Shown here one piece after another: positions 1 to 12,381 of a stretch of 12,381 nucleotides of DNA. The stretch lies in contig CADBLV010000009.1 of NCBI GenBank assembly GCA_902795555.1, positions 1-12,381 on the forward strand, written 5' to 3'. Source of the stretch: an uncultured Eubacteriales bacterium. Lineage in GTDB: Bacteria > Bacillota_A > Clostridia > Christensenellales > Aristaeellaceae. A model generated the notes under the pieces. The model worked only from the letters and a program-made list of their open reading frames with translations, was not told the origin of the DNA and ran no database searches. The position numbers and the translations under genes were made by a program. Positions within the stretch are counted from its first letter, which is position 1. The number at the start of each line of letters is the position of its first letter.

Positions 1-397
1 CGACGGCAGCGGCTTCTTCAGCGGGAGCGGCTTCCTCGGCGGGAGCTTCCGCAACAGGAGCTTCCGCAACGGGCCGGGCGGCACGGGGCTTCACGCCCGA
101 ACGCTTTTCTTCCAGCTTCACGACCAGATAACGAAGCACATTTTCGTTGATCTGGAGGTTCCGCTCGAGCTCGCGGGGCAGCTCAGCCGGGGCCTTGAAG
201 GTCACCAGCACGTACCAGCCTTCGGTCTTGTAGTCAATGGCGTAGGCCAGGCGGCGCTTCCCCCATGTCTCATCGACCTTTTCGATCTCGCCACCATTGT
301 TCGCGATCAGGGCGGAAACCTTTTCAATCAGCTCCTTGCGGGCCGTCTCCTCCAGACCGGTGTCAATGATGTAGAACATCTCATACCTGTTCATCAT
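1..397 (-). CDS. rpsF: 30S ribosomal protein S6, 3' end cut by window edge
   Basis: Component of the small ribosomal subunit that binds 16S rRNA as a heterodimer with S18. The translation begins MMNRYEMFYIIDTG and contains the S6 core features: a Gly-Gly-Glu turn (NNGGEIEKVDETWGKRRLAY), the DYKTEGWYVLVTF strand and the ELERNLQINENVLRYLVVK helix and strand. The start at 397 follows AGGAGG (405-410) by seven bases; the second Met codon (394) is possible but worse spaced. The S6 core ends near residue 95. About 36 further codons are visible as an Ala/Glu/Pro-rich tail with repeated VAEAP and PAEEA units, and no stop is reached. S6 genes usually head an rpsF-ssb-rpsR operon, which would lie off the left edge. 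Identification is very secure; the full tail length is unknown. Confidence 0.97.
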   Translation of the reverse strand, partial: MMNRYEMFYIIDTGLEETARKELIEKVSALIANNGGEIEKVDETWGKRRLAYAIDYKTEGWYVLVTFKAPAELPRELERNLQINENVLRYLVVKLEEKRSGVKPRAARPVAEAPVAEAPAEEAAPAEEAAAV

Positions 398-591: not shown

Positions 592-2067
592 TTACAGGGA
601 GTCCGACATGGCAGCATAATAATACAGGGCTCCTTCTCCGTGAACAGGCAGCGCGCTGGACAGCACGCTTTCCGGCATGTGGCTGGTCCCCCTGGTAATC
701 AGGATCGCATCGGCATCGGCTTTGCGCAGGGCAGCTGCCAGGAAGGGCTTTTCCCCATAGCGGAGCGGAAGCCGGGGAAGGATAAACACGCTTCGGACAG
801 CGAAGTTTTTTGCTGTATTCGGGGACGTTTCAGAATGATCCCCCTTTTCCCGGATGGTTCCGGTATCCTCCGATTCTCCCGGAAACGTCGGCAGATCCCC
901 TGTCGCAGAAAAAAGGATCACTTTCGATTGCATTTTTTCCCCCGGAGCGGCACAGACTACACCACAGGATTCCAGCGCTTCACGATCCTGCGTGAGCGCA
1001 GCCTCGTCATCGGAAACCCAAAACAGCCTGGCCTCCGGAAACAGATCCCTCAGCAGGGCCGTCATGGAGGCGTTCATGGCCTTTTCCCCGGCTGCTCCGC
1101 AGGAGGGAACCGTCCAATTCTTCCATCCCCGCTCAGCCTTGCGAACAAGATCGCCCAGGGCGAAAAGCTGATCGGTGGTCAGCATGCGGCGAATCCGAAC
1201 TTCCTGTCCTGCCAAATCCGTTTCCCGGATATACCGGATACCGTATCGCAAAAGAAACAGAAAACGCCGATGATCAAAAAGGGTGGTCAGCATACGGTGA
1301 GTCATCTTCTGAGGTGAAAGATTCCGCTGAAATGTCCTGTTATGGGGGCGCTCCGAGATACCGTTATCAGCCAGAATCCGTTTCTCTTCCACCGGATCCC
1401 GCGGAAGCAGACGCGTAAAAACACCGGGATATTTCTCCCGAACAGGATAAACCGGAAAATCATCGGTCATCAGTGCCGCGAAAAACGCGCCTCCGGAAGG
1501 CAGAAGACAGCTCGGATCGCTCATCTGATCGTCAGAAAAAGCCCAGACCTGGACACATTGCAGATACCGGCCGCCCTTCTTCCCTCGAAATCGCGTCAGC
1601 ATCCGATCGTATTCAGCCTGAAGCCCCCGTGGACGGTTTTGGGTTTTCAGTTCAATCATGGCCAGGGGAAGACCGTTGACAAAAAGGGTGATATCCGGAC
1701 GGAAGCTGTCCGCCCCACTTCCGCAGGAAAGCTCCGCAGCGCTTTGGAAAATGTTGTTTTCCGGATGAACAAAGTCAATCAGGGAGATCCCGTTCCAGCC
1801 ATCCCGCAGGATGTGATAAAAGCATTGCCCTAAATCCCGTTCCTCCAGACTGATCTCCAGATCGCTCATCAAACGGTCGAAGACTTCCGGGGCGGGGCTG
1901 ATTCCGTTGATGCGGCCGATGGCTGCCCGCAACGTCTCCGGCAGAAAATTGCTTTTGCGGTGCCGAAGGCGCAGCTGGGAAGCGGTAAGGTAGCCATATC
2001 CCAGCCGGGACAGATGCATCAATGCCGGAATCTTCATCTGCAGATCTTCATTGCGCGGTTTCGCCAC
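592..2067 (-). CDS. HsdR-like protein: intact nuclease domain, degenerate motor, truncated
   Basis: A 491-residue protein homologous to the N-terminal half of type I restriction R subunits. Residues ~12-110 match the HsdR N-terminal region (IPALMHLSRLGYGYL; ENNIF). The nuclease core is D125 (RPDITLFVNG), E139 and K141 (MIELKT), with the D-x13-E-x-K spacing of HsdR enzymes. Residues ~170-280 follow the clostridial HsdR pattern (FSDDQM, GAFFAAL, FLFLLRYGIRYI). The first RecA-like domain then follows, but all its motifs are lost: Walker A reads CGAAGEKA (323-330), the DEAH box position reads PRLP (431-434) and the TGTP position reads RGTS (459-462). The protein stops near a region aligned to the HsdR YYY-DGY segment, so the second RecA domain and C-terminus (roughly half a normal R subunit) are absent. 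GTG start with GGGAGG (2079-2084) 11 bases upstream; an ATG ten codons in lacks such a site. No hsdM or hsdS is visible. The long intact frame with its own promoter argues against a simple pseudogene, though a decaying remnant cannot be excluded. Confidence 0.85.
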   Translation of the reverse strand: MAKPRNEDLQMKIPALMHLSRLGYGYLTASQLRLRHRKSNFLPETLRAAIGRINGISPAPEVFDRLMSDLEISLEERDLGQCFYHILRDGWNGISLIDFVHPENNIFQSAAELSCGSGADSFRPDITLFVNGLPLAMIELKTQNRPRGLQAEYDRMLTRFRGKKGGRYLQCVQVWAFSDDQMSDPSCLLPSGGAFFAALMTDDFPVYPVREKYPGVFTRLLPRDPVEEKRILADNGISERPHNRTFQRNLSPQKMTHRMLTTLFDHRRFLFLLRYGIRYIRETDLAGQEVRIRRMLTTDQLFALGDLVRKAERGWKNWTVPSCGAAGEKAMNASMTALLRDLFPEARLFWVSDDEAALTQDREALESCGVVCAAPGEKMQSKVILFSATGDLPTFPGESEDTGTIREKGDHSETSPNTAKNFAVRSVFILPRLPLRYGEKPFLAAALRKADADAILITRGTSHMPESVLSSALPVHGEGALYYYAAMSDSL

Positions 2068-2093
2068 CTGAGTTCTCGCCTCCCGTTTTCTCC

Positions 2094-2147: not shown

Positions 2148-2176
2148 ATCATACACTTCCTCCGAAAATGCGTCAA
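2148..2176 (-). promoter_or_regulatory. Promoter for the HsdR-like gene
   Basis: On the minus strand TTGACG (2176-2171) is followed after exactly 17 bp by TATGAT (2153-2148), each one base from consensus. Transcription would start near 2141, leaving a leader of about 74 bases. It is divergent from the glnA promoter, and the two -35 elements are about 50 bp apart. Confidence 0.75.
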
Positions 2177-2335: not shown

Positions 2336-3667
2336 ATGAGTAAGTACACGAAGGAAGACATCATCCGCATGGTACGGGAAGGGGACGTGGAGTTTATCCG
2401 GATGCAGTTTACGGATATATTCGGGCAGCTGAAAAACGTAGCCATCACCGCCAGCCAGATTGAAAAGGCTGTGAACAATGAAATCATGATCGACGGGAGC
2501 AGCATCGAGGGCTTCGTTCGCATCAATGAAAGCGACCAGTATCTTCGGCCTGATCTGGACACCTTCGCCATCCTGCCATGGCGGCCTCAACACGGAAAGG
2601 TGGCCCGGCTGATTTGCGACGTATACAATCCGGACGGAACGCCTTTTGAGGGCGATCCCCGGGGCGTGCTGAAAAAGGTCCTGCGCCGGGCGGCAGAGAT
2701 GGGATATTCCTTCAATGTCGGGCCGGAATGCGAATTTTTCCTCTTCCAGACAGACGAGGAAGGCCGGCCGACGACCACCACGTCCGACGAGGCGGGATAT
2801 TTCGATCTGGGGCCGCTGGATCACGGCGAGAGCACCCGGCGGGAAATCTGCATGGCTCTGGAGCAGATGGGGTTTGAAATCGAGGCCAGCCATCACGAGG
2901 TGGCCGCGGGGCAGCACGAAATCGACTTCCGATACGCCGATGCGCTGACGGCAGCGGACAACATCATGACCTTCAAACTGGCCGTAAAAACCCTGGCCCA
3001 GAAGAACGGGTTGCACGCCACGTTCATGCCCAAGCCGGTTTTCGGGATCAACGGCAGCGGCATGCACACCAACATGAGTCTTTTCCGGGACGGGAAGAAC
3101 GTTTTCTACGATCCTTCCGACCGGCGCGGGCTGAGCAGGGAAGCATATTCCTTCATCGCAGGCATCCTGGCCCACATCCGCGGCATGGCGGCAATCAGCA
3201 ATCCGCTGGTGAACAGCTACAAGCGTCTGGTTCCGGGATATGAAGCGCCATGCTATCTGGCATGGAGCGCGAGCAACCGGAGCGCCCTGATTCGGATTCC
3301 CGCAGCGCGGGGGATGGGCACCCGGGTTGAACTGCGGTGTCCCGACCCCAGCTGCAACCCGTATCTGAACCTGGCGGTGTGCCTGGCGGCAGGGTTGGAC
3401 GGAATTGAAAAAGGCATGACGCCTCCGGAAGAGATTACCGAGAACATTTTTGCTATGGACGCGGCAACCCGGGAAGCCAAAGGAATTCAGTCACTGCCGG
3501 GGACGCTGAAGGAAGCGGTGGAGTGTCTGAAGGCGGATGCGGTTGTCTGTCAGGCGCTGGGCAGCCACGTTCTGACACAGTATGTCCAGGGCAAAGAGAA
3601 GGAATGGGATGCGTACCGGACACATGTGAGCCAATGGGAAATTGAGCGGTACATCGTAATGTACTGA
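2336..3667 (+). CDS. glnA: Glutamine synthetase, type I (Bacillus/Clostridium class)
   Basis: Cytoplasmic dodecameric enzyme that makes glutamine from glutamate, ammonia and ATP, the main ammonium-assimilation step. The 443 residues match the ~444-residue Firmicutes enzyme closely. Visible features are the [14 protein letters not shown] segment with the feedback-inhibition Arg at position 62 (same number as in B. subtilis), metal-binding glutamates in GPECEFFLF (131 and 133), [25 protein letters not shown], the flap Glu303 in PGYEAPCY, and [13 protein letters not shown]. The class lacks the enterobacterial adenylylation control; Firmicutes enzymes of this type are controlled by feedback inhibition and transcription. 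ATG 2336 is preceded by AAGGAGG with good spacing. It sits behind its own promoter and leader terminator and 43 bases before the ANTAR gene, which suggests one operon. Confidence 0.98.
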
Positions 3668-3710: not shown

Positions 3711-4244
3711 GTGGCCAGAATGATTATTGCCAGCGCTTCGGAAACGAACCGCGATCAGATCTCCCGGCTGCTGGCCTCCTCCGGTTACGCCGTATACCGG
3801 GTGTGCGCCAACGCGAGCAGTCTGCGACGGGCTCTTGCTGAAAGCGAGGACAGCATCGTGATTATTGCCGGCTCGATTCCGGATTGCAAGCCTGACGAGC
3901 TGGCCTGGGATTACGGCGACCGGGTACAGATTCTCTGGATTGCAAAGCCCGCCGTGCTGGAGGACTGCGAATCGCGGGAGATTTTCCGACTTCCCCTGCC
4001 CATCACGGGGCAGACGATGGTCGGAGCTCTGGAAATGCTGAATCAGCTGCACGCCCGACGGATGCCACGGCGAACAGGGGCTGACAGGGAAACTGTGGAA
4101 CAGGCCAAGGCGATTCTGATGCGTCAGCTTCGGATCACCGAGCCGGAAGCACATCATCTCCTGCAAAAGCAGGCAATGGATCACGGAGCGAAGATGGCGG
4201 AATACGCAGCGAAGATCATCACAGAGAACAGCAAAGATATATAA
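3711..4244 (+). CDS. ANTAR-domain RNA-binding antiterminator with pseudo-receiver domain
   Basis: A 177-residue response-regulator-like protein. Residues ~3-112 have the pattern of a receiver domain (MIIASASETNRDQISRLLASSGY), but the usual phospho-acceptor Asp position reads IIAGS (Ala53) and the Lys-Pro motif is also missing, so phosphorylation is unlikely. Residues ~127-173 form an ANTAR domain (VEQAKAILMRQL, EAHHLLQKQAMDHG, MAEYAAKII). ANTAR proteins bind paired small hairpins in nascent RNA and prevent terminator formation; in clostridia a gene of this kind (NitR in C. saccharobutylicum) follows glnA. GTG 3711 is chosen because a G-rich site lies 8 bases upstream; an ATG at 3720 is too far from it. 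The target is inferred to be the terminator upstream of glnA. How nitrogen status is sensed is not visible. Confidence 0.9.
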   Translation: MARMIIASASETNRDQISRLLASSGYAVYRVCANASSLRRALAESEDSIVIIAGSIPDCKPDELAWDYGDRVQILWIAKPAVLEDCESREIFRLPLPITGQTMVGALEMLNQLHARRMPRRTGADRETVEQAKAILMRQLRITEPEAHHLLQKQAMDHGAKMAEYAAKIITENSKDI

Positions 4245-12104: not shown

Positions 12105-12381
12105 TTATTTTATCACATTTTTACCGTAAAGGCATCCACAGTAATCCTGCCGATACAAATCAAAAACACGGGAAAGTTCCAGGGAGCGCAGATAGCCGTT
12201 TTTCTTTTTAAAATCCGCCGCCAGATATTTCACCCCGTATTTTTCCGCCGCCGCCTCCCCGGCCCGGTTCACCGCTTCCACGTTTTTATGGGGGGAAACG
12301 GAGAGGGTGGTCGTAAAATACTCAAAGCCGTGGAGACGGGCCTGCCGCGCCGTTTCGTTCATCCGCAGGCCAAAGCACGCC
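12105..12381 (-). CDS. queH: Epoxyqueuosine reductase QueH, C-terminal part
   Basis: QueH (formerly DUF208) reduces epoxyqueuosine to queuosine in tRNA, the last step of this wobble-base modification, using metal/iron-sulfur cofactors held by conserved cysteines. Only the last 91 codons are inside the window; the gene continues past the right edge. Visible family features are ACFGLRMNETARQA (conserved Cys-Phe and Arg), FEYFTTTLSVSPHKN, YLAADFKKKNGY and the C-terminal YRQDYCGC cysteine motif. The ATG at 12362 is an internal Met, not the start, since the matching frame continues upstream of it. It is followed by purA on the same strand. Confidence 0.9.
   Translation of the reverse strand, partial: ACFGLRMNETARQARLHGFEYFTTTLSVSPHKNVEAVNRAGEAAAEKYGVKYLAADFKKKNGYLRSLELSRVFDLYRQDYCGCLYGKNVIK

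Follow-up and report, generated by a model that had tools for sequence, protein, structure and literature searches.

The stretch of DNA examined here (the window; 12,381 nucleotides, contig CADBLV010000009.1) comes from an uncultured Eubacteriales bacterium and carries, at positions 592..2067 of the minus strand, an HsdR-like gene with a GTG start that encodes 491 amino acids. The assignment is based on the list of open reading frames (ORFs), a match to the HSDR_N profile and 39 stand-alone relatives. Three parts can be distinguished, all on the minus strand: a PD-(D/E)XK (HSDR_N) nuclease domain, the best conserved part (residues 1-200, 1468..2067; profile match and alignment); a linker that includes the FLFLLRYGIRYI block (residues 201-295, 1183..1467; alignments and model); and a pseudo-RecA-I domain without ATP-binding motifs (residues 296-460, 688..1182; predicted structure and motif tally). 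The protein is probably a fragment of a type I R subunit in which the fold of RecA-I is kept and its ATP-binding motifs are lost. A Pfam scan of seven window genes found neither hsdM nor hsdS, and neither was noticed in the window ORF list, in agreement with an earlier reading of this single sequence (the original prediction).

Invariant nuclease residues and a lost motor

A protein search, in which the 7995 candidates sharing the most words with the window protein were scored, returned 109 hits, a lower bound. The first, P0001, shares 99% identity with the window protein. It is followed by 39 stand-alone proteins, P0002-P0040 (442-522 aa, 49-60% identity), and by the 27 proteins P0041-P0067, 25 of which carry a C-terminal GIY-YIG domain; most hits from P0068 onward represent full or partial HsdR. 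Those stand-alone records that bear a name come from Clostridia or Clostridiales metagenome-assembled genomes, one of them from goat jejunum. The family alignment of 65 proteins holds the window protein, the 39 stand-alone proteins and the 25 fusions, with P0001 and the short hits P0051 and P0065 omitted, and was compared with 12 hand-picked full-length HsdR rows (six loci and six protein hits from P0069 on). Locus L036 is truncated by a contig end.

HSDR_N (PF04313) matches residues 6-144 with an E-value of 3.4e-21 and 76.5 bits, the cut-off being 25.1. No other Pfam domain was found in the window protein up to an E-value of 10, and there was no match to PF01541 (GIY-YIG). The catalytic Asp position, D125 (1693..1695, minus strand), and the catalytic Glu and Lys positions of E139-L140-K141 (1645..1653, minus strand) are invariant in all 65 proteins, and E112, R155 and Q173 are likewise invariant in 65/65. 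The spacing is D-14-E-2-K, and D, E and K fill the same columns in all 12 rows of full-length HsdR, in agreement with the exact HsdR spacing that had been proposed for this triad. The active-site residues of a PD-(D/E)XK nuclease thus lie in the right fold in 65/65 proteins, as the fold match described below covers the nuclease part of HsdR. RecB-like PD-(D/E)XK nucleases likewise have motifs II and III plus an invariant upstream Glu, here E112, which we take to be motif I of this class; however, the nuclease of the present family is joined to a pseudo-RecA domain and not to a working motor. In EcoR124I, the corresponding residues D151, E165 and K167 have an identical spacing; as described in PMC2602864, the substitutions D151A, E165H and K167A abolished cleavage, and E165A or E165D left only partial nicking.

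The motor positions are lost. Where full-length HsdR has TQGSGKTA, the Walker A position of the window protein reads CGAAGEKA (1078..1101, minus strand); the motif II (DEAH) position reads PRLP (766..777, minus strand); and the motif III (TGTP) region reads RGTS (682..693, minus strand), with the protein ending shortly after. Only the GT of RGTS remains, and the TGTP columns, which align loosely, were given lower weight. All 12 full-length HsdR rows keep the residues tallied for GSGKT, DEAH and TGTP; among the seven such rows shown, L004 has DEVH for DEAH. The motif II Asp is lost in 65/65 family rows. The Walker A Lys is missing from all 25 fusion rows and from all but one of the 40 stand-alone rows; in that one, P0006, the stretch reads GAAGKE and the other motif residues are absent. 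A GAAGE-like stretch, with its second Gly invariant (40/40), replaces Walker A in the stand-alone rows. The motor losses named by the original prediction were seen both in the window protein and across its relatives.

The predicted structure of the window protein aligns to residues 27-446 of the 1038 of EcoR124I HsdR, that is, through RecA-I (domain limits as given in PMC2878639), and its residues 468-491 have a predicted local distance difference test score (pLDDT) below 50. The protein stops at the border of RecA-I and lacks RecA-II as well as the C-terminal domain, so that the earlier statement that the C-terminal half is gone was right about the truncation but understated it. None of PF18766, PF22679 and PF04851 was found at an E-value of 10, and all three were found in the control, L033. 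The NCBIfam HsdR model TIGR00348 scored 55.1 bits, below its curated cut-off of 284.55, and PADLOC gave only partial REase_I matches, the best of them (E-value 4.4e-8) spanning 51 residues against a model of 1099 positions. A sequence search of solved structures with the window protein returned nothing meaningful, whereas the fold comparison did match HsdR. No GIY-YIG fold appeared among the best 50 fold matches; as HsdR and helicase rows fill that set, this is uninformative.

Compared with the type IC EcoR124I HsdR (PDB 7bto, 2w00, 6h2j), the window protein is without the ATP motifs, RecA-II and the C-terminal domain, and its gene is without adjoining HsdM and HsdS partners. The full-length relatives that scored best when genomes were scanned, L033 and L034 from other genera of the same bacterial family, are about 1000 aa long with all motor motifs, unlike the solitary gene of 491 aa in the window; L033 lies in an R-M-S gene row whose S subunit is barely above the Pfam cut-off.

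Selection, ancestry and distribution

No internal stop was found in any of the 13 carrier genomes of the genus. Across the 12 pairs listed, dN/dS was 0.20-0.47, below 1, although the ratios are rough because dS is near or above 1; even in the two closest, at 0.24 (G631/G646) and 0.30 (G001/G002), dS is about 1. The mean pN/pS over 14 sequences was 0.52 for the nuclease, 0.61 for the linker and 0.78 for the pseudo-RecA domain, values that are too high in absolute terms with pS near saturation, but whose rank order is informative. The mean pairwise amino acid identity of the nuclease domain in these sequences is 0.54. When neutral drift of the window ORF was simulated with 200 runs per level (0.25, 0.5 and 1 substitution per site), none stayed free of stops, consistent with the earlier expectation that neutral decay would bring stops first.

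In the tree, the family (65 rows) is set apart from full-length HsdR (12 rows), and all 40 stand-alone proteins group in one clade, each with support of 100/100. When the tree is rooted on full-length HsdR, the stand-alone clade is nested among the fusions, which would make the fusion ancestral. However, approximately unbiased (AU) tests did not reject a single clade of fusions (p 0.37, or 0.56 with the nuclease part only), so that either the fused or the stand-alone form may have come first. The glnA tree is too weak a guide to the history of the species. In that tree, the loci L068 and L069 (G615 and G650) are separated by zero branch length though filed as separate species.

In a genome scan at the level of the order, 6 of 396 sampled genomes matched at 1e-60; G001, G082 and G314 carry family members, and the other three score much more weakly, three of their four frames being HsdR-like at 720-1071 aa. 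At the level of the bacterial family, 14 of 300 genomes matched at 1e-90, two of which (G502 and G632) carry full-length HsdR, and the other 12 all belong to one genus. At these levels four or five candidates per genome were scored, so misses are possible. Within the genus, 13 of 45 genomes matched at 1e-60 (three stand-alone and 10 fusions), with one match per genome. A phage or plasmid gene was rejected: the scan of viral contigs confirmed no relative, and the matching plasmid (24) and phage (one) records were all below 60% identity, none covering 80% of the query. In the plasmid collection, two Neisseria gonorrhoeae records of chromosome-like size (NZ_CP119142 and NZ_CP119140, 2.17 Mb) contain a stretch resembling HsdR (34.6% identity) where no gene is listed.

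Genomic settings of the fused and stand-alone genes

The fusion branch was not part of the original prediction. A GIY-YIG gene, presumably YhbQ-like where unfused, was matched at 1e-8 in 40 of the 45 genomes of the genus. In the 10 fusion genomes the fusion is the only GIY-YIG match. The 30 others include the three stand-alone genomes, where the GIY-YIG gene lies on a different contig from the HsdR-like gene, and 27 without an HsdR-like piece at 1e-60. In the fusion species, the gene comparison indicates that the HsdR piece is joined in frame to the resident GIY-YIG gene. Unfused GIY-YIG matches with one in-frame TGA were seen in G002 (C9:84769-85008) and G642 (C122:8228-8470, L128), a possible frameshift or decay.

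The fusion lies between a HAD hydrolase gene and an SDR gene: within the sequence stretch retrieved around each fusion, HAD is present in 7/10, SDR in 8/10 and at least one of them in 10/10. In G540 the HAD gene is on a different contig, in G606 the contig ends at the HAD side, and in G663 the SDR and a peptidase gene are present and HAD is absent from the stretch. HAD was matched at 1e-40 in 34 of the 45 genomes. A close form (65-73% to that of G314, plus G314 itself) occurs in nine of the 10 fusion genomes and elsewhere only in G653, the other 24 genomes having a form at 45-54%; this distribution fits vertical descent of the fusion. The G653 locus (C47:48774-49397, L199), with the close form at 67% and no HsdR-like piece detected nearby, is a candidate for a loss or a pre-insertion state. 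In G615 and G670, two of the 20 unfused GIY-YIG loci retrieved (10 further loci lie outside this sample), a GIY-YIG gene without HsdR adjoins the SDR gene, which shows that the GIY-YIG/SDR pair can exist without the HsdR piece. The fusion with its conserved locus is the best sign of function.

The stand-alone genes occupy a different locus in each of the four cases with known surroundings (the window, L001, L002 and L003). In the window, the gene does lie between rpsF (1..394, minus strand, truncated by the window edge) and the divergent glnA (2336..3667, plus strand), as had been noted. However, neither rpsF nor an HsdR-like gene adjoins glnA in any of 36 relatives (not all from the genus, and some with short flanks), all of which keep the glnA-ANTAR adjacency. 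The idea that orthologues would share a conserved rpsF-glnA locus was rejected, and the position of the window gene is incidental. L002, which has a TldD neighbour, and rpsF were used for an empty-site comparison. The order TldD-PmbA is preserved, yet about 1.5 kb of flank in the other loci did not show the MBL neighbour of L002 upstream of TldD, so that no clean before-and-after site emerged; gene order is fluid. N6_Mtase (HsdM-type) matches occur in three stand-alone genomes on other contigs, with none on the contigs carrying the HsdR-like gene in G001-G003. Reading the ORF lists by eye, without a PADLOC scan of the neighbours, revealed no defence genes beside the stand-alone copies; a defence role is possible, without positive support.

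Around the window gene, a ribosome-binding-site-like GGGAGG (2079..2084, minus strand; read from the sequence) ends 11 bases 5' of the GTG, and a promoter-like TTGACG-17-TATGAT (2148..2176, minus strand) matches 10 of 12 consensus bases. The near-consensus promoter described previously is thus present as a consensus match, but two similar sites lie inside the HsdR-like gene on its own strand. In all, the scan found five promoter-like sites, against a mean of 1.0 in shuffled sequence, and one of them is the divergent glnA-side site. Immediately 3' of glnA lies an ANTAR-domain gene (PF03861, 2.7e-17; 3711-4244). Apart from it and glnA, the genes scanned with Pfam are metabolic; an 85-aa ORF at 12105-12362 was excluded from that scan. 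Over 99 residues the window rpsF shares 97% identity with its G003 counterpart; because of this, the window probably belongs to the same genus as G003 and other family members. G003 carries two rpsF matches (C55 and C23), perhaps from a mixed assembly.

A proposed domesticated fragment and its alternatives

The family is conserved, its nuclease residues are invariant, its ATP motifs are lost throughout, and it ends at the RecA-I border. We consider it somewhat more probable than not that the window gene was domesticated from part of a type I R subunit, encoding an ATP-independent nuclease with a fixed pseudo-RecA-I binding platform. The triad, the motor losses, the open frames and the dN/dS values agree with the domesticated nuclease proposed originally; the activity and its ATP independence are predicted from residues only. 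Type I enzymes couple cleavage to translocation (PMC4454674). The present protein would cut or nick DNA with metal ions and without ATP-driven translocation. As a free non-specific nuclease would be harmful, another licence to cut must exist, and the pseudo-RecA domain may serve as a fixed platform that binds DNA or a partner and thereby controls when cleavage takes place; a RecA-I fold stuck without ATP would be an obvious candidate sensor of DNA structure or of a partner. The fused GIY-YIG domain suggests branched or damaged DNA as the substrate, and the most likely setting would be the processing of damaged, branched or foreign DNA together with the GIY-YIG nuclease.

Several observations weigh against this interpretation. 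Apart from the high dS values, the pseudo-RecA domain is less constrained than the nuclease, the HsdR-like gene diverges fast compared with glnA (84-95% in the 36 relatives), the occurrence is patchy (13 of 45 genomes of the genus), and no neighbour is common to the stand-alone copies. The fusion may also be a structural chance, as is argued for another HsdR insertion in PMC1564403. That case, MCA0838 of Methylococcus capsulatus, likewise combines HsdR and a GIY-YIG domain in a single protein, but there HsdR is complete and the GIY-YIG domain is a recent, unique insert near residue 800, whereas in the present family HsdR is truncated at RecA-I, the motor is dead and the fusion is common to 25 related proteins. 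It was the nearest case met in our searches, limited to an open-licence library, in which no description of such a family was seen.

The different loci of all four stand-alone copies, the patchy occurrence and the intact nuclease residues could also be explained by a small selfish or mobile nuclease gene that, in its stand-alone form, spreads to new sites through DNA cuts, in the manner of a homing endonuclease. This is unlikely, as each genome has a single match at 1e-60, the viral contigs and the plasmid and phage records yielded no confirmed or well-covered relative, and the fusion copies keep their neighbours. The invariance of the triad, E112, R155 and Q173 would not be expected of a pure scaffold, and we therefore give a rather poor chance to a nucleic-acid-binding protein that no longer cuts in the cell and has kept its fold, even though both ATP motifs are lost and divergence is faster outside the nuclease core.

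HsdM-type genes elsewhere in three stand-alone genomes leave some room for a decoy or modulator that competes with the real HsdR of the cell's type I enzymes. However, the HsdR C-terminal domain, implicated in HsdS-HsdM binding in PMC2878639, is absent from the window protein, and GIY-YIG fusions would be odd for such a role, which is quite improbable. A pseudogene in slow decay would account for the lost motor motifs and the weaker constraint on the pseudo-RecA domain, but was rejected, and is hardly credible, given the triad kept in all 65 proteins and frames open in 13 of 13 genomes when no simulated copy stayed open at 0.25 substitutions per site.

The preferred reading of a domesticated nuclease fragment suggests a recycled enzyme in which the cutting part of a restriction motor has been reused. 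We propose tentatively, and with more doubt than confidence, that in one Clostridia genus a type I restriction motor may have been converted into a two-headed enzyme that processes DNA independently of ATP, with the dead RecA-I as a passive sensor of a DNA end, a fork or a partner that licenses cuts in place of the motor. Its make-up, a suggestion to be held just as loosely, would be an HsdR nuclease with a dead RecA clamp, alone in some species and fused to GIY-YIG in others. A natural family with all the examined nuclease residues but no motor offers a test of whether, and by what means, this nuclease can be licensed in the absence of ATP. Where it is fused, at a single retained locus, to a resident GIY-YIG gene, a component of a restriction enzyme seems to be entering core DNA maintenance.
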